Source: a virus
Strand: one strand, 5' to 3'
Length of the DNA stretch: 23,951 nt
Virus record (IMG/VR): IMGVR_UViG_3300023180_004922
Location: 1 to 23,951 of that record
This document shows, one piece after another, positions 2,091 through 23,900 of the stretch. A program made the translations under genes and the position numbers. How positions within the stretch are numbered: the first letter of the stretch is position 1; every line of letters begins with the position of its first letter. The notes beneath the pieces are model-generated. The model was not told the DNA's origin. It saw only the letters and a program-made list of their open reading frames with translations, and ran no database searches.

Positions 2091-2095
2091 AGGGG
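2091..2095 (+). promoter_or_regulatory. Ribosome binding site of the sulfotransferase gene
   Basis: AGGGG lies 8 bases before the ATG at 2104, in the short gap after the glycosyltransferase stop. It supports the 2104 start. Confidence 0.55.
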
Positions 2096-2103
2096 TACTT
2101 AAT

Positions 2104-3009
2104 ATGAATACTGATAAAACTTTTTATTTTATGGCAGGTCTTCCACGTTCTGGAAGTACATTGCTTTCTTCTCTATTAAATCAAAATCCTAGGTTTTATT
2201 CTGGACCAAGTTCTCCAGTTGTTCCTACAATGCTAACATTAGAAAATAGTTTTAGTAATGATGAACTATTTTTAGGATATCCGAAAATAGAAGTTGCTAA
2301 AAACATTATTGCATCCATTCTTCCTCAATATTATTCTGATATTGATAAACCAGTTATTTTTGATAAGAATAGATCATGGGTTAATCGAATGAATTATATT
2401 CCTGGATATTTTGATATTGTCCCAAAAGTCATTTGTCCAGTAAGGGATATTAGTGAAATTTTAACATCATTTATTACAATGGTTCGACGCAACCCATATA
2501 ATAACCAACCAAAAATAAATTTTGTTGATGAACAATTAATTAAATCAAATATTCCATTAACTGATGATAATCGTTGTGAATTTATAGCTGGTCAGGGAAT
2601 ACTTGGGCAATCTTATACTGGATTGAAGCAAGCAATCATGGAAGGATATGATCATTGCTTACATTTTGTTGAATATAAAGATCTAGTGAGCAACCCACAG
2701 GAGACATTAAATAAAATTTATGATTTTCTTGGTGAGGATGAATTTGAACATACATTTGATAATTTAAAAAATCCCCATCGTGAAAATGATCAGCAAATCT
2801 ATGGTCTTGCAGATATGCATGAAGTTAGATCTAAACTTCATTCCATTGCACCAAATCCAGAAGAAGTCCTCTCTGAAAGGATTTTAAATTCTTGTAAAGG
2901 ACAAGAGTTTTGGAGAGAACTTGCTATTGATTCTGATGATGAAGATGATGATGAATTTGATTTTCCACTAGAAAATGATCAAGATGAAACAAATCTAATT
3001 GGCATATAA
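2104..3009 (+). CDS. PAPS-dependent sulfotransferase (Sulfotransfer_3-like)
   Basis: This 301-residue protein begins with a strand and P-loop, FYFMAGLPRSGSTLLSSLL (residues 7-25). GLPRSGST is the classic 5'-phosphosulfate-binding loop of sulfotransferases, which move a sulfuryl group from PAPS to a hydroxyl or amine. FDKNRSW (86-92) corresponds to the substrate-side segment of this family, and CPVRDISEI (111-119) carries the Arg and Ser of the 3'-phosphate-binding motif. EYKDLVSNPQETLNKIYDFL (about 190-209) is the typical helix near the end of the domain. The acceptor is unknown; the sugar-modifying neighbours suggest a glycan. PAPS would have to come from the host. The tail after about residue 275 (SDDEDDDEFDFPLENDQDE) is very acidic and not part of the core fold. 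The stop is separated by one base from the stop of the convergent NblA-like gene. Confidence 0.88.
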   Translation: MNTDKTFYFMAGLPRSGSTLLSSLLNQNPRFYSGPSSPVVPTMLTLENSFSNDELFLGYPKIEVAKNIIASILPQYYSDIDKPVIFDKNRSWVNRMNYIPGYFDIVPKVICPVRDISEILTSFITMVRRNPYNNQPKINFVDEQLIKSNIPLTDDNRCEFIAGQGILGQSYTGLKQAIMEGYDHCLHFVEYKDLVSNPQETLNKIYDFLGEDEFEHTFDNLKNPHRENDQQIYGLADMHEVRSKLHSIAPNPEEVLSERILNSCKGQEFWRELAIDSDDEDDDEFDFPLENDQDETNLIGI

Positions 3010-3010: not shown

Positions 3011-3172
3011 TTATAATAATGCGATAACTTCTTGTTGTTTTAGATATAACTTACAATAAAGTTTTGCGAAGTTTTGAAGATCTTCGAAACTAAGTTCTTC
3101 AATGAGTCTTACATGTTTTTCATACTCAAACATTTTATTGATACTTTCGAGCGTGATTTCATTTGGGTCCAT
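3011..3172 (-). CDS. NblA-like small protein (candidate phycobilisome degradation adaptor)
   Basis: A 53-residue protein read from ATG 3172 to TAA 3011. The start is backed by a strong ribosome binding site, AAAGGAG, 7 bases upstream. The sequence forms two amphipathic helices split by a turn at LSFEDL. Compared from memory with NblA of Synechococcus PCC 7942 (FDLQKYRQQVRDISREDL), residues 15-32 FEYEKHVRLIEELSFEDL align without gaps: F, K, S, E, D and L are identical and D/E, V/I and I/L are conserved. Length and the LY-x(3)-L-x(8)-LL end (residues 39-53) also fit NblA, a short helical adaptor that brings phycobilisomes to Clp protease. NblA-type genes are known in freshwater and marine cyanophages. 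Its start overlaps the upstream 66-residue gene by 14 bases, at the end of the tail operon. The gene is well supported; the function is a candidate only, since short helical proteins can look alike by chance. Confidence 0.65.
   Translation of the reverse strand: MDPNEITLESINKMFEYEKHVRLIEELSFEDLQNFAKLYCKLYLKQQEVIALL
3071..3090. repeat. Near-perfect 20-base inverted repeat
   Basis: GTTTTGAAGATCTTCGAAAC pairs with itself at 9 of 10 positions; the tenth is a U-G wobble in plus-strand RNA and a mismatch in minus-strand RNA. It lies inside the NblA-like gene, about 60 bases past the stop of the sulfotransferase. Neither direction has a clean U-tract after it, so it is not a standard terminator. 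It could still form a hairpin in read-through plus-strand RNA. Confidence 0.4.
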
Positions 3173-3359
3173 TAATTAACTCCTTTAAAAGTAATTTTAT
3201 TTCTTCAATATCATTTTTTATTTTATCCAATTCTTCTTTTTGTTTTTGTTTTTCAGATCTCATTTTAACATATTGAAAATATTCATGAGTATCCGTATTG
3301 ACAATAGCACCAGACTTTTCATCCCTGAAAAGATTTTTATGTCCTTCTACGGGAATCAT
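3159..3359 (-). CDS. Small conserved phage protein with C-terminal coiled coil
   Basis: This 66-residue protein starts at ATG 3359, which overlaps the stop of the 2350-residue gene as ATGA (3356-3359), so its translation is probably coupled. The N-terminal part, GHKNLFRDEKSGAIVNTD (residues 6-23), has a form I recall from short conserved proteins near the structural genes of T4-like marine phages. The rest, about 35-62, is a charged heptad-like helix (EELDKIKNDIEEIKLLLKEL) predicted to be a coiled coil. There is no signal peptide or membrane segment. Function is unknown; a small virion or assembly role is possible from its position. The 3' end carries the ribosome binding site and first bases of the NblA-like gene. 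Confidence 0.8.
   Translation of the reverse strand: MIPVEGHKNLFRDEKSGAIVNTDTHEYFQYVKMRSEKQKQKEELDKIKNDIEEIKLLLKELINGPK
3180..3186 (-). promoter_or_regulatory. Strong ribosome binding site of the NblA-like gene
   Basis: AAAGGAG on the minus strand lies 7 bases upstream of ATG 3172. It is among the best Shine-Dalgarno sequences of any gene in the window and lies inside the coding sequence of the 66-residue protein. It is the main argument that the 53-residue frame is expressed. Confidence 0.75.
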
Positions 3360-6300
3360 GCTAGTGCTATTGTCCTGAGATCTTTTAATTTAACTGCATG
3401 TGCTTCATCAGTACCACTCATAACAATCTTAATAACAAATCCAGTAAATTGGTCAAGATTTTCAGCACTAAACTGATACTCTAAGAATTCATCATCTCTG
3501 CTAGCACGAACAAAAGAATCGGGTAAACCACTATTCTTTGTTGGATCAATTGCAGTATCTCCAAACCCATCACCATCAGAATCGTTTAAATTGTCATATC
3601 CTGGGAATAGTTCATAGGTTGGTTCAATCTCACTAGAATCTGCTTTATAAAGTTTATAAAGAACTCTAAAGTCTGCAGAAGAGTGGCGATAAGCACCAAC
3701 AATAACTTTCAATGAAGATGCTGGTTGCTTAAGATCCACTCTGTTTGAAACATAAACAGCAGAATGTGGGTCATTAGAATTTTGATTAACTCTAAAGTCT
3801 CCTGAATAGTTACTAATAGGATTATTAACTCTATTTCTAACCAGAGCTACAAATGCTGTTTGTGTATCAATAACTGGTGATAAATTTGAATCTGAAGAAT
3901 TTAATGTGAGGTCAACTGTTAGCGACTTATTCTTAGGAAGAGTTGTTAAGTATTCTTCCTCATTAACTTCGGAGCAAACCAAACGAGTAGAATCTAAGTA
4001 ATTAATTTGGTTAAGTTCTACGGGTTCATATCCCTGATCTACAAATGATATTTCAGATCCACCAGCACTTGTTCCAGAAACAGTTCTAATTCTGGCATTA
4101 ATTGTTGTATTTTGTCCAGGAGTTATAACATTGTATTGTGGGATAATCCCATTGTACTGGAAGTTTTGTGATATAGAAACATTCGTACCGCCAAGAGATT
4201 TTTCATCAGTGAAACTCAGTTGAGTATCTCCAGAAGATCTATCGGATCTGTCAATTTGCAAATGATATGTATCAATTTCTCTCACTGCTTTCAATGCGGG
4301 ATCATTGGGTAATGTATGGGTTGTGTTAATTCTTGAGAGGGAAATACCATTTAGTTCATACTTATAAATTCTGTCACCAACACTATGTTGTCTGGTTCCA
4401 GAGAGAAGAAGATCATTTCCTCTAGAACCAATTCCAAGAGTTCCAGATCCAACACTATTATAGTAAATGATCTCATTATTGATCTTTACATACCCTCTTG
4501 TAGTGGATATTCCTTCAAATGTAGCAAATACTGAAGTATTAGCAACAGAAATCGTAGTATCACTTAAACCAAGATCAGCACTTAAGGTAGTTGGTATTGT
4601 ATTTGGTTCTATGTTAGAAATAATAACCTTATTAGTATCTTGATGCATACCATGGTTATACTCATTGATTTGAAGCGCTCTTCCATCATAAAGATTGCTC
4701 ACTACGCTGGAATTTTCTCTAACAGTAACACCAAGTGCTACATTTGATGATCCATTAAAATACTGAAGATTATCATTAGTTGCAAAAGATTCACCCTGAA
4801 CATTAGTCAGGTATAGAGTGTCAACTCCACCAATCGATGAAACTGAAATCTGGGCATTTTTGCCCTTGGCGACGCTAGAAGTTGTAATTCCAAGAACATC
4901 ACCAACAGCATAACCATTACCAACCGAAGTAATAGTTGTTGATGATAGTTGACCAGAAGCAAATACTATAGTTGCTTCTGCCCCACTTCCAGATCCAGTT
5001 ATTGAATATAAAGGTACAGAAGTAAATGATCCATTTGAATATCCAGCACCAACATTTGCGCTGCTAACAGTTGCGATCTTGCTTCCAACATTTTCAATGT
5101 ATCCATATGGTCCAGAAGAACCAGTCTTAATAACTTTAGTTCCTGGAATTAGATTAGCAAGTACAGAAACATCAGTTTCTTCAGTTGATACGCCAACTTT
5201 TAATTTTCTTGGTAAAGTTCTAACTGGATTAATATCCGCTGCTGGGATATTTTCATCTTCAGATCCAAGAGTTGGATTGTAGAATGTAACTGTTCCAGAA
5301 GTAGAAGTAAAGTTTGCTTTATAAAGTTTGAACTTAAGATCTTCAAACTGACTTGGTGTCCAAATTGTTCCATTTTGTGATTTAAACAAACTTCCACCAA
5401 GATATTGGCGTGTTACTAGAACATTTTCTGGATTTGGTAGTAACTGCGTATTCACAGTCTTCTCACCCATTCTAGCAATCCAAGTTTCATAATTATCTGA
5501 TGATGGTGCTAGAAGAACTAGAGCATATTCTGTATTTGGTTGTAGGTAAACTGGTGATGGAAATTTGAGATTTGTAGCAACAGTAGCATCCGTTGATGTT
5601 GTAATTTGGTCAGGGTAAACCTCAATAGTTGCATAATCTTGAACTAATTGACTTGTTGGTGTTCCAAGTTCAACCGTCCTCAGTTCAACAAACATCTTTT
5701 CATTTTCATCCTTGTTGCCAAAGTAAAGATCGACGGATGTCAAGAACGCTCCAGTCTCATCAACTGTAAATGTCTGAGCAAGTGGATCTCTTCTTGGTGG
5801 TGGAGGTGGGGGTGGAGTTCTTACATGTACAGTGACTTGAGCAAATGTATTAACTATACCACTTGCACTGTATGTTGTTTCACCACTAGAAATTAGAAGA
5901 CTTCCTGGAAGTGGTGTGGCATTTGTTGGACTTGATGTTACCTTAAATGATTTGGTTCCAGTAGTTATTCTTATTACTGGTGGTGGTGATGCTAAAGGAT
6001 TTCTGATGAAGAACGAACCTTGAGAATCTCCCCAGTTATCTGTAACTATTCTAATATTAGATACTGATGCTTCTGCGGAACTAGATCTTCCAACAAAAAC
6101 AATATCATTTGCGATATATCCAAAGAACCTTCCCTGTGCTTCTTCACATAGAGATGCTGTGTCAATATTGAGGATTGTAGAAGAAGCAGAATATGAAGAT
6201 CCAATTGAAGATGATTTATTATATGGATTAATATTATAAGTTCTGTTTGGATTATTATATGCTCCAGTCTTATGATTTGGTTGAGCAGTTCTGAAAGAAA

Positions 6301-9300
6301 TAACTCTTTCAGAACCAATAAATCCATCAACAATTTCTCCAGTTTGGAAAGTTCCAGAAATCATTGATATTTCAATAAGTTTCGGAATAATATCAATTCC
6401 GCTTACGCCATCAAGGAAAGCATAATATCTTGTTAATGGTTTTAGACCACTATTACTGTACTCAACATTTCTCGATCTCATATGAGTATCGGGAACACTA
6501 CTGATTAAAACATTTTCTATGTAAGATCCATTCCAACCGCCAGTTTCTGTTCTAGAACCACCTGGAACAAAGATGTTTCTAACCCAGTTATCTGATGCTG
6601 GATTGAGTTTAACAACACCTTTATATTCAATCATATTAAATGGATTAACATTCTCAACTCTAGAGGCAAGTGGTTGCTCTAACCATCCTTTTTCTACGTA
6701 ATCTAGAGTAATCAGATCTCCAGTTTTTCTTACATTAGAGTCAAGAAGAGGTAAATCTGTTCTATAATCTACAGTATCTTCATTAAGAGATGGAGAAACT
6801 GCTAAGTTAGTTTTTAGTGAATAGAAATCAATAGGAGTGTTTAACTCTCTTCTTTCAACATCAACATCAACATTACAATCTGGATCTGAAAGATTTAAAA
6901 GTTGATTATTCTTGAAGTCATCAACGAAGAAACCACTCTTGAATCTGGATAAACCATCAGCATCTTGAATCTGTAGAGTCTTAGTGTTTAGTTCAAGTAA
7001 GGATAGTGAAGTAACAACTTCTAGATTTTCAATTCTATCTTCTAACTTACCAATATCTCTCATGGTATATCTTCTATTATCCACCAGAGTAATTACAGCA
7101 TCTTTTGGATCATATAAGTATGCTGGAAGATCTATAGAAGCAATATCCATTGCTTCTTCAACATTAACTGGTTGTTTTGGATCTAGAGAAGATGTTCCCT
7201 TGATTACAGAAAGATTTCCAAGTTTGTCTAAAACAAGTTTATCTTTTCTTGGTAGATAATTCTTATAACCAATCAAAGAACTTTCTCCAGGACTTACAAC
7301 CAGAGTTGGATTAGTTCCTGTTGAAGCAAAGTTTCTGCTACCAAAAGCAAAAGGTGAACTTGTAGTTGAAGTGAACTCAGAAACTCTTGGTCTGAAATCC
7401 AAAGTATCGGATGCCCTTAGACCAGTTGGTAGTAAAGGAATATCCTTTCCAAATCTTTCTGAAGAATATGAATTTACAGTATAAACATCACCATTATCAT
7501 TTGATGGCACTTGATAGCAGTTGTATACTACCAATAGTTTTCTTGAAGGTGTTTGGGATGATTTTTTTCTTATGATTCTTGAATAATCATAATATTGATT
7601 TTTTTGCCCTTTATCAAGATCAAAAGAATTTGTTAGATTCTGATAATTTCCAAAAGAAATGGCAACAATATTGCTGGTAATATTTGATTCTTCAAAGTTT
7701 ACCGTTTCACCAACAGTAAACTTATTGGAGTTTAAGTAGACAAACTCAACTTGTGTTGAAGATAATCTAGTTGCTAACTGAGCAACTGCTCCACTTTCTT
7801 GACCGATTATTTTCTCACCAAGAATTGATGCTGTATCTAAACTTAAACCAGAAACAAAAGTTAATTTATCTAAAACGGGTGAACTGGAATCTAGAGATTC
7901 ATAAACAGCAATTACATTTGCTACATCTGGAACATTAAGAGAAATTTCTTTATCATCAACTCTTAAACCATAGTAATTACTTGTTGTTAAACCACTTATT
8001 GAAGTTGAAACGCCCGAACTTACTTTATCGACGGTTAGTTTCTGACTTCTAACATAATTTTTTGTTTTATTCTGTATTGAATTTTTCTTAACAGAAACAT
8101 TTACAGTTACATTTCCAGATTGACTTGGAGTTAAACCAGTAAGGGTAAGTAATGTAGCATTTGATGATAATGTAAATTGATCATCTGTTAAATCTTCGAT
8201 AGTACCATTACTATAGAAAACGGAATATCTTTCCGCATCAAAAGTTTCAAAGAATGCACTAGAAATTCCTGTTGAAGAAACATTAACTGTTAATGATCCA
8301 GTAGAGTCTGTTGACTGACCTGTAATCTGTCTGGAAACTAAAAGGTTTGAACCTGATAGATCTACTGATGATACATTAGAAGCAGAAATAGGAGCGTATA
8401 AGTAAGCATCTTCAGTATTCCCTATTTGTGGACGTCCAACAGAGAAGGTTGTTAATACTTCAGATGTTGGGAAAGCACCATTGCATATACCAGAAGTTGT
8501 TGGAACAGTTGCTAATTGTAGAGATGTTCCATCGGAAGAAACACTTTCAACTCTATTAAATGTTTCATCAGTTAATCCGGCAATCTGATATCTAATAATA
8601 GCATCACTTCTGATTCCAGTAAATGTTTTTCCTGGGCAAGTAGCAATACCAGTATTATTAATTTGTAGTTTATCAGTTATTGTAAATTTATTAGGCGTAT
8701 AACTTTGTAAAACTGTATCTCCAACAAAATTTGTTTCTAACCCAAGATCAGAAGATCTTTGGAAGACTGACTTAATATCTTCAGTACTATAAACTTTAAC
8801 TGATTTTACTGATCTGGTTAGACTTCTGGATTCGTTGACGAGAATTTGCTCACCAGCAATAAAGGTTCCAGATGTCTGGTTAATGGTTACGTCTGCCCCG
8901 CTAGGGGTTCCTACGGTGTATCCAGATGCTCCACTACTTAAACCCCTAATGAAAGAGGTCTCAGGGCAATCTGCTGCTAGTACAGACTCATTTAGAGATA
9001 ATACAGTATATGTTTGAATATCAAATAGATACAAATCCCATTCAGAAGCAGACGAAGAAAAAGAATTATCTGCTGTTCCAAAAGAATAAACTCTTGCCGT
9101 ACCAATCGTAGTTCCAGTTCCAGCAGAAGATCCGCTAGTTCTTTGATTATTGAGATCTACAGTATTATCATTATTGTCTACACCAATAACTGGAGTTCCA
9201 GTAACGTTATTGAGTTTTAATCTATTTCCCATTTCAAATGGGACCAAGGAGGATGATACTGATTGTACATCTCTTGGTTTTTCAACATCTAAAATTGTTG

Positions 9301-10408
9301 TTCCTGGAAGATCAATATCATATCCTCTGACGTATGCTTTTCCGGCAGAAACCTTAACACACATTAGATCATCACTAGGATTATTGCCTTGTTCTGTCTT
9401 TTGTGTATCTAGATATAGACCTTCATTAGAAATACGATTATTAAGAGAATTGGCAACTTGAATATCGAAGTTATCTACAGAATAATCTCCAGATTCTTCA
9501 AATGTTCTCTTAGCAAAATAATCCTTAATTATTGAGTATTGTGACTTATCTTGTAACTTTTTGATTTCTCCATTGTCAAGTCTTATAATTTCTACAAAAT
9601 CCTTATCATCAAAATCTGTTAATTCTTTTTGTGTCAGAATTGTTGAGATTTTTAATCTATCTGCTCCAGGCGCAGCAAAGTTTGAAAAACCTTTAGCATT
9701 ATCATAAAGAGATGTATCTGCACCAACGTTTATAATCTCTTCTTTTATTTGTAAACCTACACGGAAAGAAGGATTATTTGTAAATGGAGTAACAATTAGA
9801 GTATCTCCATCTACATTTACAAAAGTACCTCTAATAAAATAGACTCCTGGTGTTATACCTACAGATGCTCCAATAGCAGTCGCGTCAGAGTCAATTAGAG
9901 ATGCTACAGTATCGCCAGAATTTATTGTTGTATTTCCATAAGTAACACTATCAAGGGTAATTAAGACTTCACCATCGCCAAATGGTGTAAATTGAAAATC
10001 TGAATTTGAATCAATATATTTTACAAATAATGTTGCTGATTCTACATCCTTAGATGGTGGTAACAAGTAATTTACTACTTTGGCAGTAATACCTGTTGTT
10101 TGACCCTGTAGTGTTTTTCCAACTAGTTGCCTGATGTAAAGAGAAACATCAATTCCAAGATGGTCGGAATTTAACTTAACAGCATAATATTGGGGATCGT
10201 AAGTGATACTTCCGGGTATCACCATTGATCCTTCTTTGAAAATATGGCTTCCAAAAGATTCAATTTGTTCTTGAAGAATTGACTGTAGAGTAGTTAATTC
10301 CCTAGCTTGAACAGGGAATCCTGGTTTAAATAATACCCTATAGAAATTATCGGACGGATCAAAGTCATCATAATATGGATTGATATTTAAATTAGTCTTC
10401 TGTGGCAT
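3356..10408 (-). CDS. Giant DUF4815-type virion protein (baseplate/fibre-associated)
   Basis: This 2350-residue protein lies directly after gp8, in the place of the peripheral baseplate and fibre genes of T4. Residues 1-80 carry the strongly conserved phage signature NPYYDDFDPSDNFYRVLFKP, then ARELTTLQSILQEQIESFG and FKEGSMVIPG, which I associate with DUF4815. A second signature at about 1108-1165 (YTMRDIGKLEDRIENLE, then LSRFKSGFFVDDF) includes a short helical stretch. A seven-proline linker at about 1531-1538 precedes a beta-rich domain beginning RRDPLAQTFTVDETGAFLTS, with YLGGSLFKSQNGTIWT near 1675. The C-terminal third has a G-S-G-Y-type module, a module with KINNEIIYYN, and an acidic loop DSDGDGFGD near 2275 that looks like a calcium-binding loop. 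It ends KLKDLRTIALA. No T4 protein is an obvious full-length match. It starts 2 bases after the gp8 stop with only a weak GGA upstream, so coupling to gp8 is likely. Virion location is inferred from context and family. Confidence 0.83.
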   Translation of the reverse strand: MPQKTNLNINPYYDDFDPSDNFYRVLFKPGFPVQARELTTLQSILQEQIESFGSHIFKEGSMVIPGSITYDPQYYAVKLNSDHLGIDVSLYIRQLVGKTLQGQTTGITAKVVNYLLPPSKDVESATLFVKYIDSNSDFQFTPFGDGEVLITLDSVTYGNTTINSGDTVASLIDSDATAIGASVGITPGVYFIRGTFVNVDGDTLIVTPFTNNPSFRVGLQIKEEIINVGADTSLYDNAKGFSNFAAPGADRLKISTILTQKELTDFDDKDFVEIIRLDNGEIKKLQDKSQYSIIKDYFAKRTFEESGDYSVDNFDIQVANSLNNRISNEGLYLDTQKTEQGNNPSDDLMCVKVSAGKAYVRGYDIDLPGTTILDVEKPRDVQSVSSSLVPFEMGNRLKLNNVTGTPVIGVDNNDNTVDLNNQRTSGSSAGTGTTIGTARVYSFGTADNSFSSSASEWDLYLFDIQTYTVLSLNESVLAADCPETSFIRGLSSGASGYTVGTPSGADVTINQTSGTFIAGEQILVNESRSLTRSVKSVKVYSTEDIKSVFQRSSDLGLETNFVGDTVLQSYTPNKFTITDKLQINNTGIATCPGKTFTGIRSDAIIRYQIAGLTDETFNRVESVSSDGTSLQLATVPTTSGICNGAFPTSEVLTTFSVGRPQIGNTEDAYLYAPISASNVSSVDLSGSNLLVSRQITGQSTDSTGSLTVNVSSTGISSAFFETFDAERYSVFYSNGTIEDLTDDQFTLSSNATLLTLTGLTPSQSGNVTVNVSVKKNSIQNKTKNYVRSQKLTVDKVSSGVSTSISGLTTSNYYGLRVDDKEISLNVPDVANVIAVYESLDSSSPVLDKLTFVSGLSLDTASILGEKIIGQESGAVAQLATRLSSTQVEFVYLNSNKFTVGETVNFEESNITSNIVAISFGNYQNLTNSFDLDKGQKNQYYDYSRIIRKKSSQTPSRKLLVVYNCYQVPSNDNGDVYTVNSYSSERFGKDIPLLPTGLRASDTLDFRPRVSEFTSTTSSPFAFGSRNFASTGTNPTLVVSPGESSLIGYKNYLPRKDKLVLDKLGNLSVIKGTSSLDPKQPVNVEEAMDIASIDLPAYLYDPKDAVITLVDNRRYTMRDIGKLEDRIENLEVVTSLSLLELNTKTLQIQDADGLSRFKSGFFVDDFKNNQLLNLSDPDCNVDVDVERRELNTPIDFYSLKTNLAVSPSLNEDTVDYRTDLPLLDSNVRKTGDLITLDYVEKGWLEQPLASRVENVNPFNMIEYKGVVKLNPASDNWVRNIFVPGGSRTETGGWNGSYIENVLISSVPDTHMRSRNVEYSNSGLKPLTRYYAFLDGVSGIDIIPKLIEISMISGTFQTGEIVDGFIGSERVISFRTAQPNHKTGAYNNPNRTYNINPYNKSSSIGSSYSASSTILNIDTASLCEEAQGRFFGYIANDIVFVGRSSSAEASVSNIRIVTDNWGDSQGSFFIRNPLASPPPVIRITTGTKSFKVTSSPTNATPLPGSLLISSGETTYSASGIVNTFAQVTVHVRTPPPPPPPRRDPLAQTFTVDETGAFLTSVDLYFGNKDENEKMFVELRTVELGTPTSQLVQDYATIEVYPDQITTSTDATVATNLKFPSPVYLQPNTEYALVLLAPSSDNYETWIARMGEKTVNTQLLPNPENVLVTRQYLGGSLFKSQNGTIWTPSQFEDLKFKLYKANFTSTSGTVTFYNPTLGSEDENIPAADINPVRTLPRKLKVGVSTEETDVSVLANLIPGTKVIKTGSSGPYGYIENVGSKIATVSSANVGAGYSNGSFTSVPLYSITGSGSGAEATIVFASGQLSSTTITSVGNGYAVGDVLGITTSSVAKGKNAQISVSSIGGVDTLYLTNVQGESFATNDNLQYFNGSSNVALGVTVRENSSVVSNLYDGRALQINEYNHGMHQDTNKVIISNIEPNTIPTTLSADLGLSDTTISVANTSVFATFEGISTTRGYVKINNEIIYYNSVGSGTLGIGSRGNDLLLSGTRQHSVGDRIYKYELNGISLSRINTTHTLPNDPALKAVREIDTYHLQIDRSDRSSGDTQLSFTDEKSLGGTNVSISQNFQYNGIIPQYNVITPGQNTTINARIRTVSGTSAGGSEISFVDQGYEPVELNQINYLDSTRLVCSEVNEEEYLTTLPKNKSLTVDLTLNSSDSNLSPVIDTQTAFVALVRNRVNNPISNYSGDFRVNQNSNDPHSAVYVSNRVDLKQPASSLKVIVGAYRHSSADFRVLYKLYKADSSEIEPTYELFPGYDNLNDSDGDGFGDTAIDPTKNSGLPDSFVRASRDDEFLEYQFSAENLDQFTGFVIKIVMSGTDEAHAVKLKDLRTIALA
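4345..4595 (-). repeat. E-I-I-Y-Y module in the DUF4815 protein
   Basis: About 80 residues running from SDTTISVANTSVF through VKINNEIIYYNSV to SRGNDLLLSGTRQHSVGDR. It has the same order of elements as four segments in the gp7-like protein: I-x-V near the start, then a D/N-E-I-I-x-Y strand, then an R-G loop and often T-x-x-x-H. It appears to be a shared beta module of about 60-90 residues. Confidence 0.5.
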
Positions 10409-10410: not shown

Positions 10411-11961
10411 TTAAAATTCCAGGATAATTTTAACGTCTTCTTTTTGTCTGGAGTTCCTTGAAATCAGAGGTCGATTATCTAGATAAATTATGTCCCCCGA
10501 TCCTTTATTTATTTCAGTATTTGCCAGTCCATTTGTAAACTGAGATCCTAGATCAATTATCTTAGATCCAGTTGGATTGGTGGTTATTCCTGTGAAGGTT
10601 GTATCAATAGAACCAGAGAAACTAGCAGTAGTAACTGGATTTGATGAAGATTCGAAATTTAAAACCTTGGATGCTGTAGATATTCCAGAATAATCAGTTT
10701 GATCTAAAGTTGTCTGATTAAATGTTAGTGAACGATCAACAAAATACTTAACAACTTTCGTTTCACTATCATAAGAAGCAACATATCCTTTAGCAGTTCC
10801 GTCAGTAACAGATTGGGAAATCTTATCGCCAATGGATAAAGTTCCACTTACTGAAGAAAACTTAATAGCATTTAATGAAGAGAATTGATTTTCCGTATAT
10901 AAAGTTGTCGATCCAATAGATGTTGGATTTTTAACAATTCCAACTTGAGCAAATTTAGCATCTATAGGAAAATCTTTAGTAGAATCATCAAATCGAGCAT
11001 AGATTAAAATTTTGTCGGCACCCAATTCTTTGTAAATATCATATCCATGACCTTTTGATGGTGGAATAATTGGTATTAGGTGAGCATATGTTCCAGCAGC
11101 GCTGTCATTAATTGATCCGAGATCAACCATACCATAAGTATATCCTTTACCACCAGAAGAAACGGTGGTATTTGTTATCTTACCACTTACAACATCAACG
11201 ATCACTTTTGCTCCCGATCCATCACCAAGAATATTAACTTCTTGACCAAGTCCTCCAGAATAATTTGATCCTTGATTTTTGATGTATACTTTTTTTATTT
11301 GATTTTCATATACATCAGAGTCTCCATTATCTCTAACTGCTGATATTTGAGCATCAGTTGAGGATCCCCAGTCACCTGGGAGAGAAATGTACTCTGTAGA
11401 ATCAAATTTAATGATGTCACTTGGATTTACAGAGAAAAGATATTTCCATACATATCCATCACCACTTTCACCTGCTCTAGATGGTTCCAAATCGGTAAAC
11501 GTTGGTTCATCTTGAGAGGCATTGCCGGTTGTACTTATCCCAGAGGATCCGTTGTCAATACAAATATAAACTTTGTAATCAGAATTCATTACATAGTAAT
11601 TTGAATCATACAATCTCGTTGATTGTGTGATTGGTGATAAATTAGAAGCACTATAGTCGTGCCTGTACATTTCATATCTAGTTCCTCTCGCCCAATCAAT
11701 TCTTCTAATCAATCTTTTTGCGTTGATTGATGTTACTTTTTTGCCAAACATCATCGTTTGGCCAACATGATTTAAATTATTAAAATTGTCTACAGGAACT
11801 GGTGTATTATCATCCCAATTAGTCGATCTACCAAATCCAACCTGAGTTGGGTTTGCCAAACTCAAGAAAATGTAGTAAGAATTATTAGTAGTGTCACTAA
11901 TCGAGTCTATAAAATTACTCGCATTTAATATTCTAAACTGATCTGTTACAATTGCCGCCAT
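10411..11961 (-). CDS. gp8: Baseplate wedge subunit gp8
   Basis: This 516-residue protein matches T4 gp8 (334 residues) from memory across its length. The N-terminus AIVTDQFRILNASNFIDSI matches T4 AIVTSKFR...NFYNSI, GFGRSTNWDD matches TFGRSEPWSS, GDGYVWKYLF (167-176) matches GDGYVWEYLF, STEYI matches TNEYI, and the C-terminus GDIIYLDNRPLISRNSRQ (about 488-505) matches GEMIYMENRPPI. In T4, gp8 is a dimer in each baseplate wedge, held with gp7, gp10 and gp6. The extra ~180 residues lie between about 220 and 480 and include a G-S-G-Y-type pair (NQGSNYSGG, then SGGKGYTYG at about 224-285) also found in the flanking proteins. A late promoter sits 19 bases before the ATG; the AGGA ribosome site is 14 bases away, which is long. 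Confidence 0.93.
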   Translation of the reverse strand: MAAIVTDQFRILNASNFIDSISDTTNNSYYIFLSLANPTQVGFGRSTNWDDNTPVPVDNFNNLNHVGQTMMFGKKVTSINAKRLIRRIDWARGTRYEMYRHDYSASNLSPITQSTRLYDSNYYVMNSDYKVYICIDNGSSGISTTGNASQDEPTFTDLEPSRAGESGDGYVWKYLFSVNPSDIIKFDSTEYISLPGDWGSSTDAQISAVRDNGDSDVYENQIKKVYIKNQGSNYSGGLGQEVNILGDGSGAKVIVDVVSGKITNTTVSSGGKGYTYGMVDLGSINDSAAGTYAHLIPIIPPSKGHGYDIYKELGADKILIYARFDDSTKDFPIDAKFAQVGIVKNPTSIGSTTLYTENQFSSLNAIKFSSVSGTLSIGDKISQSVTDGTAKGYVASYDSETKVVKYFVDRSLTFNQTTLDQTDYSGISTASKVLNFESSSNPVTTASFSGSIDTTFTGITTNPTGSKIIDLGSQFTNGLANTEINKGSGDIIYLDNRPLISRNSRQKEDVKIILEF

Positions 11962-11980: not shown

Positions 11981-11988
11981 TATTTATA
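11981..11988 (-). promoter_or_regulatory. T4-type late promoter
   Basis: TATAAATA on the minus strand is an exact match to the T4 late promoter word recognised by phage sigma factor gp55, with the context TCTATAAATATAGG. It lies 19 bases before the gp8 ATG and contains the TAA stop of the gp7-like gene. No other exact copy was noticed before a gene start in the window. It would drive gp8, the DUF4815 gene and the two small genes independently of gp7. Confidence 0.75.
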
Positions 11989-14900
11989 GATCTTTTCTGA
12001 GCGCCCCAGTGTCTCTCAAACCATAACCACGTCTTTGAATAGTTGGGAAGGTTGATAAACCAGAATTTATGGTATTAAATCCAACGATTAAACCAGTAAC
12101 ACCAATGGAAACAGGATCAGAAGATCTTGTTATTCCAGAAAGTCTTCCCCAAGAGAATCTTCCAAGTGGGAGAGATGTACTTCCAGTAGTTGCTATTCCA
12201 ACTACTGAACTATCAGATTTAACATTAGTTACGATTTCAGCATTTCCACCAGAAGAAGAAATACTATGTACATAGTAAATATTATCTAAGAAAGTGGTTC
12301 CAATTCCAACCAACGAAGCGTCCCCACCATCAATCGAAGTAACACCATTACCAACAGTTGTATCTACAATACAAATTGGATAATTGACATTTAAATCAGT
12401 GAATGCTGTAGAATTTAAGAAGAACTTGAGAGCAAGTGGATTTCCGCCAGTTCCTGTGGTTGTAGTAATACCAGTCACTATTCCAGAGAATCCCTGAACA
12501 GTGGTAATATCGGTTACATTCTCATATGTTGGAGTTGGGAACGGTACAATAACCTTTGGTTGAACTGTTAATGAATATCCAAGACCTGGATTTGTGATGT
12601 TAGCGGTTCCGCTTAGAGATCCATTTACTACAGATATTATTGCTGTAGCAGTAGTTCCAATTCCAACACCAATCTGTTTTGGTGCTCCAATCTTAACTTC
12701 TATAGAAGATCCGATATATCCAGAACCAGCATCTGCAATGTCAAGTGATTGTATAGTCCCTGCTGCAGAAACTATTGCAGTAACCGCCGCAGAAACAGGA
12801 TCGACGCTATCAACAATCAAAGCATCAAATGAAGATATGACAATCGAAGATTCATTTTCCTCATAATTAAAGAATTGGGCGTTATCCACAAATATTTCTG
12901 TATCAGAGATTGAAAGATCTTTTATAATTCTAGCGGTTGGGTAAACTTGCGTTTCTATTGAATCTCTTGATTTTGATACAATTTCATTGGAAATAATTCT
13001 ATCAACTTTTTGTTTTGTCCAACTTAATGGTTTGAAGTTATTTTCATCTATACCACTACCAACATAGAGATTTGTTTCCATAATGTCTGAACTTGTGATA
13101 CCAACAACAACCCTAGGATTTTGAGTAATTGTTCTTGGGTTTAAGTTATCTTTTATAACCTGAACAGTATCTCCTGGTTTGATTGATTCATTTACGTCAA
13201 CAATGTCAGAATCAACGCCTTTTGTACCTCTGTAGAAGAATATTGATACAGAATCGGTTTCTTCTGGTGCTTCTGAGAATACAAAGGATGTTCCTCCGGT
13301 AAAAGAATAATGAACACCTGGATCTTGAATTACCCCATTTACAAATATAATCAATAGTGAATCCATATCAATTTCAATAGAATCCGCATTCGATGGATCT
13401 TTCTGGAAACTTAGAAGTTGTCCATTATAGTAAAGAGGGAATCTTGTTCTAATACCATTTTGTAGATTGGATATATTGTCAATGTAATCCAATTCACCAA
13501 ATTGCCATGCTGAGAATGTATCAGTAAAAGTTTCAATAACAGTTAATTCAAAATCAGCAAGTGGTTCCGAAAGATTTTTATCCGTCACCAAACCGACTGG
13601 TTTGAACACATCACCATTTCTAAATCCATAACCAGGTCTGGTTATGTTGAAAGATTTAACTTCAAATAGAGTTGACCCAATTCCAGTGGTAGAACTGGAA
13701 CCAACTTCCAAATTAAGAAGTAATCCAGTTCCAGTTTCTGATGTTGTTCCAATACCTAATCTAGAAACTCCAGTTACTGGTAGATTGCTATATGAGGGTT
13801 CTGAAACAGATACAAATGTATTTGTTTGAGCATATCCAGATCCACCACTATTAACAGTGAAAGTTAAAGAACCACCAGCACCAACTATTGCACTAATATC
13901 AGCACCATTACCAGTAGAAGAAGTGACAGCAATACTTACTTGACCTCTATATCCAGATCCATTAATATCTGTAGAACCTATTCCAACGGCAGTAATAGTA
14001 CCAGATCCATCAATAACTGCTGTTACTGCTGCTCCAACTAGTGGAGCATATCCAAGACCAGTTGTTGATCCAAGAGAAATAATATATCCACCACGAGGTA
14101 ATTGATTTTGTTCAATATAAACAGGATCAATAATAATAGATCCATCAGTTGAAGTTATTCCGGTGAAAGTAACACTAGAAACACCAACACCCCCAGATAG
14201 CTCATAGTTATTACCTTCATTATTATCTGTAGTTGGAGTTTGGAAAACATCATTTATCAATAGGATACCACTACCAGTTGATATACCAGAAGTGTTTAAT
14301 CCAGAAGTAGTAAGTGTGTATGTTTGACCAATTCCTGTAAATTGATCTGAGATATCATCATAGATCAAGTTGGAACTGTAATCCTGCTTTAAAAATACTC
14401 TGCCATTGAAAGAAGAAAATACTTTTGGTAGATTAGTGTCATCAACTATACTTCTTGCATCTCCTTTTGGAGCTTCTGTAAAGTATATGGTACTTCCTAC
14501 AATATTGTATGATCCTCGATATACTTGGAATGCAGTTGAATCTGTGTGAGATGTTGCCGAAGTTCCTACAGAACCTCTAGAAACTTCTATAAGGGTTGTA
14601 ATACCAACATTATCGATTGGTCCACTCGAAGTTGTTCCAAGTCCAACAGCAAGAACTGTTACAAATTCATCATCAACTTTTAATATATCTAATGGTCTAA
14701 TTGAAGAAATTCCAGAAACAGCGAAGAATGTAGAAGAAGCACTTACTTGACCACCATTATCAACTAAAGTGTATGATAATGGATTATATGCTAGAGGATA
14801 TTGAACAACACCATCAATTGAGAGTACGGTTTTCTCAAGTTTTTTATACATTTCAAATTCATGTGTATTTCCACTTCCAGTAGAAGTGAATGTTACTCCT

Positions 14901-17900
14901 ATTCCAGAAGAAGCATACAATGGAGTTGTTGCTACCTTAAACTGGTTATTGTTTATCTTAATAGCATAAACAGTTGATGGTAAAACATCTGTTGTTCCAA
15001 TACCAACACCCCCAGATATTTCTGTTGCTGTTGATCCAATACCAACACTAGTGAATGCTAATCCAATTACACTACTGTTTGGTGTATAATTTAATCTTTC
15101 ACCAGTGCTGAAGAAGTGATTGTTGATTGTAAATATTCCAGTCTCAGCATCAAGAATGGTTGAATCTGATGGATCAAAAGTTTTGGCGAAGATTGGAGTT
15201 TCTTCATAATTTAAATTAAAGTCAAGTTTATTTGCTCTAGATCCGTTTTTAGAATTGTAGAACGCAAGATTGACTGCTTCTGTTACGGGACCGTAGGTTA
15301 GATCTGGTGGCGTATTAATAGTATCACTATCTTCATAGAAAAATTTATTCAAACTTTGAATTTCATAAGATCCAACAATATTTGGATCTGGATAAAAACT
15401 AAGAACTAAATCGGTTCCATTGTACTCACCAGAAAATGTTCCAATACCACTAGTGCTTCCGACTGAGATGAATGGGTATTGCATAGTGTAAACATCTGTT
15501 CCATCATGTGTCATCAACACTTGATGAATAGAAGTAGTATCACCATATGAAACTCTGACTAAGGATTTAACTGAAGAAATAAGACTCTTATCGGCAGAGA
15601 ATACCGTTGAACTAGAAGATACATTAGATTCCAGTTTTATGCTTCTCTCAGATCCATCTGTTTGTGCCGAAGTTTTGAATCTATATGTTCCAACACCAAC
15701 AGATGTTGATCCAAATCCAACTAATTTACCTCTTACTAAGATTTCGTTAGTGGAATTATTTGTAAAGTCGAGTGTTAGCACACCACTATCAATAGAAATA
15801 CCAAATGATCCGATTAGACCACCAACACTTCCGAGACTACTGTCACTATAGAATTCTGAAATATAAGTATTTTCTCCATCATGGTCAATTTCTAGTTCTA
15901 CAAAGTTAATCTGATTTGAAATCTGATCATAAACTTGGAACTTACCATATACCGAAGATGTTGTAAGAGTAGAGAATCCGACTACAGTTCCAGTTGAACC
16001 AACTCCAACCAATTTATTGGCACCAATAATATCAATAAATCCAATAGATTGTGTACTAATTCCACTCAGAACAGAATTGAAACTTGAGTTAAGTACCTTG
16101 ATATTATAATCAGTATTTTCATTATCCTCTGGAGAAAATCTGAGATATAAATTTCCAAATTCATCAATGATGGATTGAATATCAGCAATTTCATTTTCAG
16201 TATTGTATAAAGAAGATTTCTCCAGGGTTATTGAGTTCAAACCATTATTTAAAACAATTAGTTCTGTTATTTGTCTATCAGTTCCATTTGGATCTACTGC
16301 TTGTATTAAAAACTCAGAGTAACTATTATCATAAGAGACAATGTCAACGTATTCTTCTGTCGTATTGTTTCTATTTTTGAATTGAGTACTGAAGTCATCA
16401 ATTTTTAAAACTCTATTTGTACTACATCTGATGTAATCTGCTAATGATTTACTCTTTAACTTGAGAAACTTAGATTTGATTTGACCATTTCCATTGGTGA
16501 TAGTGTCAATATCAACAACATTGTCATAGAAGTTGATAGTATCAACTCTCTTTTCTTCTAAAATATCTCTAACAACGATGGATTCTGAAGTACTTGTTAG
16601 AGATGTCCCAACATTAACAGATTCCTCAATTTCAGTATCGGCAAAGTTTTTCAATCCAGATGTATGAAGTAGTCTATTGACAGGATTGATTAAATCCTCA
16701 TATGCTACTGGACTCTTAACAGTATATGATAAATTTTGGTAATAATCATTATCTGGAATAACTTGATAATCAACACCAAGTTTTCCAACACTATTTGCCC
16801 ACTCATAATTTTTTTCTGATGAGTAACGAACATCAAATATACCTTCATTATTTGTTATGGTCTCAACAGTAGCTAGAGTCCCAGAATTTTCCCCTTTCAG
16901 AATCTCACCAACACTTAAGTTATAAGATCCATAAACCTTTACATATCCTTTTCCATATTCTGTTACTGATAAGTCTCTGAGAATAAATCCATCTCTGTTA
17001 TCTGTAGATAACTTTTCGCCAATTAAGAAATCCGAATACGCTGTTGTTACTTCAAACTTAGGATAATCATTATGATTTATAATATTGGCATAAGAACTTT
17101 GGTTTGTTTTTGCTATTCCTGGATTAGTTGTAATACCAGAAATATCAAATTCTAAAACTGCTGGATTAGTGTTTTGGAAACTTGATACAATGAAAAACTG
17201 ATATCCATTGTCATCAGAGTTAAATCCCGTCCCATTGGAATCTACATTTTCAATTCCCTCAACAAATATCTTGTCACCAACAGTAAAAGGAGATTGTGTA
17301 TAACCAAAAGTTGGTGTATTCATATAGCAAGTAACAATTCCAGATGTGGAAGTTTCCATAGTGTTAATTCCAATACCATTTGTATTGTTTATAGTAAAGA
17401 TTTCAACATTTCCAAACGGTAAACCTTTTGGACTTCTAGTAATATCTACAGATGCAATTGAATTTGATACTAACACTGGAGATAAAATACCACTATCATT
17501 CTTTTCTCTAGTTACAGAATTAACAACTACTAATTCTGGTAGAGAAGAATAATTTCTTCCACCATCAATAACAGAAATATTTGCAATTTCACTGGAATTT
17601 TTTAAATTAATTTTTGGAGAAATATATGCTTCTGGTCTGAGAGTTCTGTCGCATGAATAATCGAATCCCTGATCTAAAATAGTAGTATTTTTAATCCTAC
17701 CAATGGATTGTGAGATTGCTATAATGGAAGCATTCTTTCCTTCAATTGAAGTGATATCTATAAACGAAGGAGTTTTCTTATAATTGAATCCACCAGAAAG
17801 AATGCTTAATTTGGCAACTCCACCTTTCTCGTTTAATGATGTTGTAGTATACTCAATCTTACTGCAATTATTTGGAGAGTAACTTAATCTTTCTGGTTTA

Positions 17901-20900
17901 CCAGTAAGAGCAACGTCAAAAGTTGTTGATCCAGTGCCAATAACTTGATATTCCTTGTTATTGTACTTACTTTCGATAATTGATATCATTGAATAATCAG
18001 ATACACTAGTATCTGAGGTACTAATAAATCCAGATTTTTCTACATTATAGAATAATTTTGATGGAATATTTGAATCATAGTTTAGAGTCAATGAGGCATT
18101 AGTTGAAACTCCTACCGTTCCAACACCAATAACTGTAAATGGTGTGGTGTTTCCTACAGAGACAAACTCATTTCCAAAAGTTGAATTTGTATAAATCTTA
18201 AACTCATATCCTTGTAAAGAAGAGTCACTTAAATCAAATTTAAGATTGTTGCCAATATAAGTCTCAATTCTTGGATTAATAAGACTAAATTCTTGCCCAA
18301 AACCTCCAGTTCCAGCTATACTTACTATAGTTGGTGGATTTAAAGAAACATCATACTTAGTTTCGCACAGATTAAAATTATTATCATCAATTCTATAAAC
18401 ATAGTAACTTCCTGTTTCTAATCCAGAAGCAATTAAGTCTGAAGAGTCATAGAAAATTTTATCACCAGTTTTGTATCCATGATTCTCAATATTAATTTTA
18501 TTTGAGGAAGTGATTATAGATTCTGATCCAAAACCAACAGGATCAATTACAATCTTTTCAATTGAAGAATTATATTTAACTCTTACTTCCGTTGATGTTC
18601 CAATTCCAACGGTTAAATTTGGTGTTATATCAAATACGACTTTATCACCATTTCTTAATTGGTGATCTGTAGAAACAGATACTGTAGTCTTAATCCTTTC
18701 TACTTTTCCAGTTACTTGAGTATATGCACTTTCCAAATAATACTCATAATCATCACTTCCGTTATTAAAGAAGAATAATCCATCAGTATTTGTGGTTAAA
18801 CCAACAGATGTTGTTAAACCAATAAAGTCTTTCGATTTATTGATAACGTAAACGGTCTGTGAATCGCCACTTATTGGTAGATTGAATGGTATATCTCCAG
18901 AGGTTGTTCCAACAGAGATTGCACTAGAAGAACTCTTCTTATATAAAGTTACTTGCTGATTTGTTTTGAATGGGTGGTTTGGTAAATATATGCTTTGAGT
19001 TGGTATTGAAATTGTATTTGTTACTTCACCCAGAGGGAAATCTACGGCAACACCAATTCCTGATGTTGTTCCAACACCAACAGAACTTCTTGGATTAAAA
19101 TAAACCTTATCGTTGACTTTAGAGTTAAAATATTGTGAAGATGTTGGTAAAGTGAATGTGCTTGGTTCTAAAGAAACTTGCGTCGATGCTGTATGGGCAG
19201 ATCCAACAATACCTCTCTTAACTCTGAGAACTTTCTCAGTATCAAAGACATTTAACACTGAAAGAACTTCTGTACCAATTCCAATAGATGATCCTACAGA
19301 TACTAATTTTAAATTTCTAGAAAGATAAATGTCAGTTACAACACCAGCAGTTGCGTTCGCTGGAACTTGTTTGTTTAGGGATGAATGATCTGTCGATACT
19401 CCAATTTTATGTGTTTTTGATATGCCCTGTACAAAAGTAGAAAGACCAGAAATAGTGACATAATCACCATCAAGAAGAGAATGATATGGATCTACATAAA
19501 CTTCAACCTGATTCTGATTCTTCCAAGTAATTACAGCATCTTCATAAGTTTCAATCGATGTTGAAAGATCAACGATTTCTTTACCAGTCAACCTTGAAAT
19601 CGAAGCAGTTACACCGCCACCATTTGTTCCATCATTGTTAAAATTGGCAACATCTCCAATTTTATAGTCTTCTCCAGAAGAAACAATAGTAAATGATTCT
19701 ACAGATCCGGTAGTAACAGAATCAATTTTTGTTGTTTGATTTGTAATTTCATAAGATTCTGAAATAAAGTCATTATCAGCATATTTTTCAGAAACTTTAT
19801 ATGGGAATGTGTTTCTGATTAGATTTGAGTTATTAAAATCAAATGTTTGATCTAGTTTTTTGTTTTCTATGTAAAACTTAGAGTTAAAAGTATCACCAAT
19901 AAAATATGGGAACTCGGCAACCAAATTATTTGATAGAGAGTCTGTCTTAATACCACAGAAATAAGCATAAGTTCCTTGTGGAAACTCTGGAGTTTTACAA
20001 TATCTTCCATTATGAACATCGAGATCTCCAGTCGAATCAAAGGAGTAATCCTCAACAAAAAATCCAGAATCAAAACTTGGTCTGTTGGTTATATTGGATA
20101 TATCTAAAGTGTATCCAGTTTCAACCAACTTTAGTGGTGAATTCTCATCATCTGGGTCAGAATATCCATATGGACCATAAATTGGATTGCCATCATATGC
20201 CCACCCAACAATGGGAGAATGTTGATTACCCTCATCTACAGTAAACTTATTTCCTATTGCTGTAGAATACCCAACAATTCCATACTGAAGACCATTACCA
20301 GAGGAATATAGAATTTCATCTCCAAATCTATATCGATTATTCAGCGTTAATGATCTTACATCAACATCAAGCATTCCATTTGAACCTGTCGGTTTAACCG
20401 TAATTGTTGTTTTTTCTTCAGTATATCCAGAACCAGGGGTTATAACAATAACATCAGTTATAGATCCATTAGAAACAATCGCTCTAAGTACAGCACCTGT
20501 TCCATCACCAACTACAACTAAGTCTGGAGCAGCATTATATTCAATTCCTTGAGATAGAATGGAAACTTTTTCAATCTTTCCAGATATAATAATAGGTTTT
20601 AATTGTGCATTCTTACCAGTCTTAATTGAGATAAGTGGTTTTTTATGTAGGTTTAAGGTAGTTGAACCGTATCCAGTTCCAGATTCATACAAATAAGCAT
20701 CAATAATCTCACCCCTAATGATTGGAGTAGCAGTAATAATACCTGTTATACTGCTACCATAAGAAACGTTAACATTTATATTGATATCTGGATATGAGAA
20801 AGTGTGGTATCCCGATCCTACAGATTCAAATTCAACATAATTCTTTCTAATATAATTTGATTTTATTGTTCCAGCAACACCAGCATTAGCAAGTCTAAAA

Positions 20901-23900
20901 CTATTACTATCATTGGAAAGAATGTAGTATTGATTAGAGGTTGATAGTCCAGATATTACAGATCCAGTTGATTCATACTTAACTAGTTCACCATCTTTAA
21001 AGTTGTGATTTTGGAAAATTACTAGGTTTTCTGTTGTAGATATTCCAACAGGTTTTACCCTCAAAACTCTATTGGTGTATCCACTACCAGAGTTAATAAC
21101 TTTTATTTGTGAAATATTTTTCTTTCCATCAAATACTCTAAATTTATGGATACCCTGATTGGATATTGTTGTAAAACCAACGGTGTTTATCCCAGCATAG
21201 TAATCCTTATCACTTTCAAATAACCTAATAGTCTTATTGTTTACAACTTTAGTAAAATATACTGATCCATTCTTTAAAGTTCTTCCTTGATCAGTATTTG
21301 AACCACCATAACTTCCAATACCAAGTTCACTATTTCCGTTTTTATCATAAACAATTTTTTGCCCATCTACAAAATTATGGTTTGATAAGAAAGTAATTGT
21401 TTCTGCTGAAAAATCTACTCCACCACCGGAAGAAATGTCAACACCACTAAAAGATACATCTCTATATCTCGTTCTCAAAACTGGTTCTAATATTACTCCA
21501 TTACCGTTTCCACCAGTAATAGAAACAGAAATAACGTTAGAAATGTCAAATTCTGATGGATCAACTAAAACTGACTTGACGGATCCAGATACAACAGGCT
21601 GAACAAGTGCTGTTGTACCAACAGATGGTCTAGAAATTTCTATAATTGGTGGATTTACTACATCATAGTTTGATCCAGAATTAACTATAGACACTCTTTC
21701 TAGTGGACCATAATAAACTTTATCATCAGACTTGTAGTTGATAATTTCAACACCGTTTATCAACATACCAACAGATCCAACTTCCGTCTTATCTTTTCCA
21801 GAATCATTAATATTTGAAGATGCTGGAAACTTTCTCAATATCTTTTGTGGTGTTATCGATAGATTTCTCTCCGAAGAAAGAATAAACCTATGGTATCCTG
21901 ATGATTGAGTTGGTAAGTTAAACTCCAAGTAATCATCACTATGGATAAAAGATCTAGAAGAATAAAGTCTAATTTGATTTCCAGATCCTATAACCTTAAT
22001 ATAATATATCCCTTCAGTTAATCCAAATAATGGTGCAGATTCTGGTTGATAATAAACACTATCACCTGTGAGAAAATCAACAGAAGATGAAAAAGAAATA
22101 ATTGAGTATTTCTGTGTTGTATCATTATATCCCTGAATTGTTGATCCTGCCACAGCAGAATCAATTTGCTTAGAAATTAAATTCTCAGTAACCTCATATG
22201 ATGGTAAAGAATTTGAAGCAACGTAAAAATATTCATTTCCATCATTATATGTGTTCTGAACATCAGAGAAAGCAGTATTATTGCCAACATCAATAGAGAG
22301 TCCAGAACTAGAAGCTGTTTTAACATTTCTTCTTAGATCGTATTCAATTCCAGATGTTGGTGAAAATCCACCAAGATTATCCAAAATAACTTGTCCAAGA
22401 CCTTCATTGATACTGGAAACAGTAGCCCCAGAAACAACAACATTATTGGAATTTGAAGTCAAGATATCAACAGAATCATTAACTCTCAAAGAAGATTTGT
22501 CAATATCTGTTTTTAACGTAAATGTCGATCCAGAAATAGAATCCACATTAAATCTACAACTTGTATTGTATATCCAGGAATTAAAAAATTCTTGTTTGAA
22601 TGTTTTATTATCGTCTGGATTTAATATTTTTTCACCAACATTCTTAACATATACTTTTTCTCCCTCAATAGTTGATGTAACGTCACTCTTTGTATTAAAA
22701 GATGATAATGAACCAGTAATTCTAAATTCTACTTTTTTGGTTAGATCACCATCTTCATAACCATAGTAAGTATCATCAGATCTGATATTACTTGCCGTTG
22801 GAATATCTGTATCGACTCCGTTACATCCTAAGAATTGATTTACACTCTTATCTGAATATGTAATTACATTTCCAGAAGAAATTAGTGTTCCTGTCTGAGC
22901 AAAACCAACTGTTGAATCTACTGTTATTACAGACGCTCCAGAGTTAACAGTAGATAGTACTTTGGTATTTGGTGTGATACCAAAAGATCCATTAATTAAA
23001 TCATTATCATTATACCCAACAAATAAACCAACCTTATAATATGTTTGGGCATACCCTACTTTTTGACTCCTTGTAAAAATTTCAACTTCAGAAACAGAAG
23101 CATTAGTATTTGGATCCTTTGAACTTATTATTGTTTGACCAATTAACTTATTTGGATCGCCAGAAATTTGTTCAATTACTATAACTTCTCTTCTTAAAAA
23201 TTCTGCAGAAGATGGTTTGATCAAAAACTGCTCTAAATCTATTACTTTTGGAGTAACTCCAAATAGAACATTAAATAATATTCTAAAAGATTCTTCCGTT
23301 CCCTTTGCTTCATAAAACGTCCTTGCTTCCTTTATAAAGTTTCCAACGTTTAAATTAGAAACAAAATCAACATTCTCCAATCCAGGAGTAAGAGAGTATT
23401 TTAACTTATTATAAAATTCTTTTAAAAATAGGGAACTTAGGTTCTCAACCCTACTATCAGAATCATGAGAAGAACTAACAGAAGACGAAAAGGTTAGTTC
23501 TTGGGGATTATTTTCGGATCTATAAGTGGTGATTCCACTAAAACCTCGAACACAACCAGTAAATGTGTTGGTTGTTAATCCAGTGTAAGTGATAATCTCA
23601 TCATCAATCTTTAAAAGACCATACTCTGGAGGAAATCCTTTCGTTGATGAAACCTGAATAGTCTCATCTGTAGAAGATATTGACGACTCTAGAGACGTAA
23701 ACCCAACAACAACCTCTGGCGTTAGATTATCAACTTTTAAATATTGGTCTAGATTCTCAGCAATATCTACAGGTGCACCCTGATATTCTTGAGAAACATA
23801 GTATTGCTTTAAGAAATCAACAGTCTTTGGACTTTCTGATAATATAAACTCAGGTAATTGATTTTCAATAATCTGCTGAACTTTAACTCTCGTTTCAAAA

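Follow-up and report, generated by a model that had tools for sequence, protein, structure and literature searches.

The window analysed here, the whole stretch of 23,951 bases in IMG/VR record IMGVR_UViG_3300023180_004922, carries a small gene at the end of a tail operon. With somewhat better than even confidence, we read it as an accessory gene that encodes an NblA-like adaptor in a T4-like phage, the host being probably Synechococcus. Judged by its sequence, the gene is a member of the cyanomyovirus NblA-like family (PHROG 27081); it is not filed as Pfam NblA because the test against PF04485 failed. The first-pass annotation had proposed an NblA-like gene. That proposal is probably correct, and its substance is already in print for relatives, since the S-SCSM1 protein published as NblA is 48% identical. 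The window gene is a further example of these recorded relatives and not a new kind of thing.

Background

NblA is a helix-loop-helix protein that has been solved as dimers in four-helix bundles. It binds phycobiliproteins as well as ClpC, and by mimicry it may also loosen phycobilisome rods (accessible parts of PMC4103541 and PMC7966870). Phage-borne nblA, as probably in the window, is found in the freshwater phages Ma-LMM01 and PaV-LD, where it is expressed in infection with loss of phycobilisomes (parts of PMC5780444 and PMC4103541), and the NblA of freshwater phages is described as close to that of cyanobacteria (same part of PMC4103541). PMC3037559 stated in 2010 that nblA had so far not been seen in marine cyanophages. 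Nadel and others 2019, as cited in the accessible part of PMC9602691, cover S-TIM5, 14 podoviruses and active nblA from marine viral metagenomes. In PMC9602691 itself, ORF237 of S-SCSM1 was assigned as NblA, a distant homologue by HHpred, with homologues in six marine cyanomyoviruses and one freshwater cyanomyovirus.

The gene and the tail operon

The NblA-like frame runs from an ATG at 3172 to a stop codon at 3011-3013 and comprises 53 codons, whereas the plus-strand reading of the same interval, as displayed, contains four stops. The 53-residue frame described earlier is exact for the minus strand, and a ribosome-binding site precedes it. The start of the frame lies within the preceding virion gene, and the shared DNA is read in two frames, as NGPK-stop in the upstream gene and as the MDPN start in the NblA-like gene (Table 1).

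Table 1. Features of the NblA-like locus and the tail operon in the window.
Feature	Position	Strand	Basis or remark
NblA-like gene, 53 aa (P0001), PHROG 27081	3011..3172	minus	open frame and family searches
Ribosome-binding site AAAGGAG	3180..3186	minus	7 bases 5' of the ATG, within the upstream gene
14-base overlap of upstream virion gene and NblA-like gene	3159..3172	minus	sequence
66-aa predicted coiled-coil virion structural protein, phrog_473	3159..3359	minus	P-SSM2 homologue is T4-GC 112
2350-aa DUF4815 protein, VrlC-like structural gene of related phages	3356..10408	minus	profile searches
gp8 baseplate wedge subunit	10411..11961	minus	profile searches
3976-aa baseplate wedge / virion protein	11984..23914	minus	profile search

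With just 53 residues in an AT-rich window, a chance open frame might be suspected, but the conservation of the protein leaves that explanation a negligible probability. All 12 scanned members fall in one PHROG, at least 586 environmental stretches encode a relative, and the median dN/dS in the region outside the overlap is 0.147 for the window clade (907 usable pairs with dS 0.2-1.5, among 81 sequences). The chance explanation was rejected on the tblastn relatives and this ratio; the minus-strand frame at 3011-3172 is confirmed as a real gene, and it is under purifying selection.

The NblA-like gene is the last of a minus-strand tail operon of T4-like cyanophage type. Its stop codon is one base away from the end, at 3009, of a plus-strand sulfotransferase-like gene. 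This neighbour belongs to four plus-strand genes at 1-3009 that converge with the tail operon and encode a protein of unknown type, a Methyltransf_24 protein, a protein whose match to heptosyltransferases (GT9) stays below the threshold, and the sulfotransferase (PF13469, 54 bits); the four are possibly a surface-sugar modification set. It had also been remarked that no photosynthesis cassette is visible nearby. No photosynthesis gene was recognised among the nine genes scanned, but a record of 23,951 bases says little about the whole genome.

The motif CTAAATA, a cyanophage late promoter motif, has no copy in the whole window against 7.75 expected, and its absence could mean that a promoter-like motif is avoided in a long operon. 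The accessible part of PMC3037559 does not contain the CTAAATA promoter motif; it quotes TATAAAT as the T4 late motif. There are nine copies of TATAAAT in the window against 14.55 expected, one of them on the minus strand 21 bases upstream of gp8, and no minus-strand copy lies between that one and the NblA-like gene. Late expression of the gene is what we infer from its position in the operon alone.

Family and distribution

When the NblA-like protein was compared by tblastn with 50,697 phage records, 23 credible records were found (not counted are three rows at E 9-10, two from Vibrio phages and one from an Escherichia phage), the best being S-SRM01 with 73.6% identity and E 1e-19. A second query returned the same 23 plus Sf-CH5 and Sf-CH8, giving 25 records of 19 distinct phages. 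In Sf-CH8 the divergent relative sits between hypothetical genes, in a gap without annotation (L331, 2001-2156), and the match in Sf-CH5 is equal to it. Among the 23 records, three (of S-SCSM1 and S-SCSM2R) carry the annotation phycobilisome degradation protein or NblA and 20 that of hypothetical protein. The PHROG 27081-type gene of S-SM2 (GU071095), placed in T4-like GC 1205, is likewise recorded as hypothetical. In IMG/VR at least 586 stretches encode a relative (586 of 600 pattern-matching stretches among the matches listed).

The PHROG 27081 profile, labelled as of unknown function, matches residues 1-51 of the 53 in the window protein with E 6.1e-16, and it is the PHROG shared by the 12 scanned members mentioned above. 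PHROG 28129 and other weak PHROG matches were dropped, each having matched just one or two members. The cyanomyovirus NblA-like proteins of S-SCSM1 (ORF237), S-TIM5 and S-SCSM2R belong to the same PHROG and are homologous to the window protein over nearly the full length, with tblastn identities of 48.1%, 46.2% and 44.0%, respectively.

Sequence relation to NblA

The first-pass annotation had aligned 18 residues of the frame without gaps to a remembered NblA sequence. The match holds: within residues 15-32, 6 of the 18 positions (F, K, S, E, D and L, counted by eye) are identical to S. elongatus NblA, in a sequence that agrees with PDB 3cs5 chain A over all 59 residues. However, only F15 is invariant in a 92-row family alignment, and much of the letter match is therefore particular to the window sequence: K19 is Lys in 87 of the 92 rows, E30 is Glu in 54, S28 is Ser in 14 and D31 is Asp in 6.

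The profile match to PF04485 that the first-pass annotation had put forward as a check was not obtained. At E up to 10 neither the window nor any of the 12 members matched; a further search at E up to 5 gave no match either, and none was obtained in 9 further records. True NblA proteins reached 28.5 to 91.5 bits with the same profile in four of five cases tried, L270 being the exception. Searches of Pfam, NCBIfam and the sequences of solved structures with the window protein and with family profiles likewise gave no NblA match, and the 1ojh stretch had no match among phage records.

More sensitive comparisons gave a similarity that is co-linear with NblA, in the expected register and mostly above reversed or shuffled controls, but weak. 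With hhalign the probability for the family against NblA was 0.4-6.3%, thus below 7%, and P ranged from 0.0058 to 0.13. By direction of comparison, P was 0.13 and 0.028 for the window-clade profile, 0.027 and 0.0074 for the all-family profile, and 0.032 and 0.0058 for the S-SCSM2R-clade profile; other alignments gave 0.098 and 0.0064. Twelve reversed controls of the three profiles gave P 0.12 to 0.45, so that the poorer direction of the window clade is no better than the best of them (0.13 vs 0.12), and the four reversed controls for the better-direction comparisons of the all-family and S-SCSM2R-clade profiles gave P 0.24-0.45. In a home-made profile alignment, 1 of 300 column shuffles reached the observed score under each of two schemes. 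An NblA HMM gave at least 4 bits for 19.6% of 321 members, which are related and not independent, against 2.2% of 6420 shuffled decoys. The window protein scored 5.6 bits with this HMM, compared with a best of 3.1 among its own shuffles; over all decoys the maximum was 9.6 bits, and no single member stands clear of them except perhaps the best one, at 11.6 bits.

As a positive control, podovirus NblA matched the cyanobacterial NblA profile with a probability of 94.6% and P 7e-8, and the window family is therefore much further from NblA. Compared with the podovirus NblA profile, the family (P 0.83 and 0.40) did worse than reversed podovirus controls (0.072, 0.13 and 0.048). The cyanopodoviruses S-TIP37, KBS-P-1A and S-SRP01 resemble the window in carrying an NblA-type frame in a Synechococcus phage. 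They differ from it in a clear NblA profile match (S-TIP37, 28.5 bits with PF04485), in belonging to PHROG 27006 and not PHROG 27081 (S-TIP37, KBS-P-1A), and in a gene that adjoins an exonuclease gene, whereas the window gene ends a tail operon. In S-TIP37 and MedDCM-OCT-S28-C3, unannotated NblA-type frames overlap the exonuclease gene (L322, L325, about 1001-1168). The freshwater phage proteins are cyanobacterial-like by description, and an environmental viral NblA of cyanobacterial type (L272) gives 91.5 bits with PF04485, in contrast to the window family with none.

The window protein is like cyanobacterial NblA (PF04485; PDB 1ojh, 2q8v, 3cs5) in size, in its predicted helix-turn-helix and in a Leu and a Phe. 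Leu8 and Phe15 are invariant in all 92 family rows and correspond to the two invariant columns of a 12-row NblA alignment, with one residue more between them than in NblA. Unlike in NblA, the near-invariant Glu-Gln before the Phe is not kept in any of the 92 rows: position 13 carries Lys or Arg in 91 rows (Lys in 87) and Gly in the remaining one, and position 12 is S, D, N, T, A or G. The family has invariant residues of its own, K41, L42, Q46 and E48, within a KLYxKQQE block in the long helix.

A 2006 study by Bienert is said to have implicated the C-terminal Leu and Lys of NblA in phycobilisome binding. In the hhalign register the Leu position corresponds to L53, which is Leu or Ile in 80 of the 92 rows, while the Lys has no counterpart, its position falling past the C-terminus of the window protein.

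The weak sequence link, the absence of PF04485 matches among the members, the replaced Glu-Gln with Lys13, and the separate set of invariant residues would all suit a small helical-hairpin protein that has the shape of NblA and acts on another target, for example as another Clp substrate adaptor, as an anti-adaptor blocking host NblA or as a host regulator. We consider such a protein unlikely, in view of the published HHpred assignment, the Synechococcus hosts of all credible isolate records and the structural model described below.

Predicted fold

NblA proteins are of about 60 residues and consist of a helix, a turn and a long helix, and the 53-residue window protein fits this description in its predicted fold. 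For the window protein, AlphaFold2 modelling from 92 sequences gave helices at 11-25 and 29-52 (mean pLDDT 95.4); for the true viral NblA L272, modelling from 9 sequences gave helices at 9-23 and 27-55 (mean pLDDT 88.3). In both, helix 1 has 15 residues, with the invariant Phe as the fifth, and a 3-residue turn that ends in Ser leads to a long second helix. The proposed NblA-like helix pair is thus borne out helix for helix in a single-chain prediction, and the agreement in helix lengths, turn and Phe position speaks against another target. The equal turn length is not family-wide, because the turn is one residue longer in 50 of the 92 rows, a difference that counts on the side of the other-target explanation.

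Fold searches of the PDB and BFVD with the window model listed no NblA and gave nothing significant. The true-NblA control model also recovers no NblA from the PDB; the failure is therefore put down to the method, which is limited for two-helix proteins of such small size, and does not count as evidence against NblA.

Genomic slot and accessory status

The position in the tail operon had been called unusual, which is too strong. Among 320 family loci (counted as loci, some contigs entering twice) 220 are in the same slot and 85 are not, although a GC 112 may have been missed in some of these; the other 15 do not extend far enough for a decision. For the 80 loci nearest to the window protein, a GC 112-type gene is directly upstream in 78 and the remaining two have too little upstream DNA; the spacing of the two genes is identical in 76 of the 78 loci measured. 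The position of the overlap stop codon is also kept in 193 of 220 slot loci vs 46 of 85 others, but this count was set aside in favour of the spacing, because MDPN followed by Glu or Asp yields the same stop through codon usage. The near-fixed overlap shows clearly how an accessory gene can be anchored within an operon of virion genes.

Such an arrangement would also fit a minor tail protein, or a tail-fibre assembly protein or chaperone. The gene overlaps a virion gene with near-fixed spacing, in S-SM2 and Bellamy it lies between T4-GC 112 and a gene annotated for L-shaped tail fibre protein assembly, and two displaced relatives still have structural or packaging genes as neighbours: that of S-SCSM1 follows a virion protein gene, and that of S-SCSM2R is flanked by terminase genes. 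On the other hand, P-SSM2, P-HM2, S-CAM9 and S-SCSM2R have a GC 112-type gene followed by another gene with no NblA-like frame annotated between, and of these four only S-SCSM2R gave a tblastn match, outside the slot. Of 12 isolate loci viewed, the gene is in the slot in S-SRM01, S-SM2, Bellamy (in these three overlapping the GC 112-type virion gene, as in the window) and SynMITS9220M01, and elsewhere in the other eight. Unlike the window gene, those of S-SCSM1, S-TIM54 and S-SCSM2R lie outside the tail slot, and in S-B05, S-TIM54, S-SKS1, DSL-LC03 and Sf-FS3 the relatives are found among non-tail genes. With the slot empty in some phages and relatives in other neighbourhoods, the NblA-like gene therefore looks like accessory cargo and not a virion component, and a tail function is regarded as quite improbable.

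Proposed function

The protein most likely works like NblA. The identity of 48.1% to S-SCSM1 NblA, the published HHpred result and the predicted fold favour the NblA assignment, but the missing PF04485 match and the weak profile similarity keep it from being complete. As an NblA-like adaptor, the gene would be expressed from the end of the tail operon and, since its start codon lies inside the preceding virion gene, the two would probably be translated in coupling. The 53-residue helix-turn-helix protein would dimerise, and the dimer would bind phycobiliproteins and hand them to the host ClpC protease. The resulting breakdown of the antenna would set amino acids free and reduce the input of light while virions are being assembled. 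We infer this dimerisation, the binding partners, antenna breakdown, translational coupling and late timing for the window protein.

If so, a small gene present in those environmental viral stretches and mostly labelled hypothetical would be an antenna-breakdown gene run together with tail genes, and amino-acid recycling and light control would be linked to virion assembly in T4-like cyanophages. More tentatively, and with doubt prevailing, the window gene may represent a branch of NblA-like genes fixed in the tail operon, with the dismantling of the antenna translationally tied to tail output by a route that is perhaps unlike that of host NblA. The remodelled N-terminal motif and the absence of the C-terminal Lys may be the basis of such a difference; phycobilisomes may be prised apart without delivery to ClpC, or the phycoerythrin of marine Synechococcus may be the target.

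Hosts

All 25 credible isolate records, from the 19 phages, have Synechococcus hosts, and the host of the window virus is probably a Synechococcus-type cyanobacterium. This agrees with the suggestion of a phycobilisome-bearing host such as Synechococcus, but S-SCSM1 is reported to infect Prochlorococcus too (accessible part of PMC9602691). Among 24 Prochlorococcus records holding gp8 none has the NblA-like gene, against about 1.4 expected; as this is close to chance and S-SCSM1 also infects Prochlorococcus, a host restriction is not established. In a scan of genome contigs the NblA-like family appeared only in two contigs labelled Euryarchaeota MAG (L268 and L269, 3001-3162), which we would guess to be cyanophage contigs binned into archaeal MAGs.
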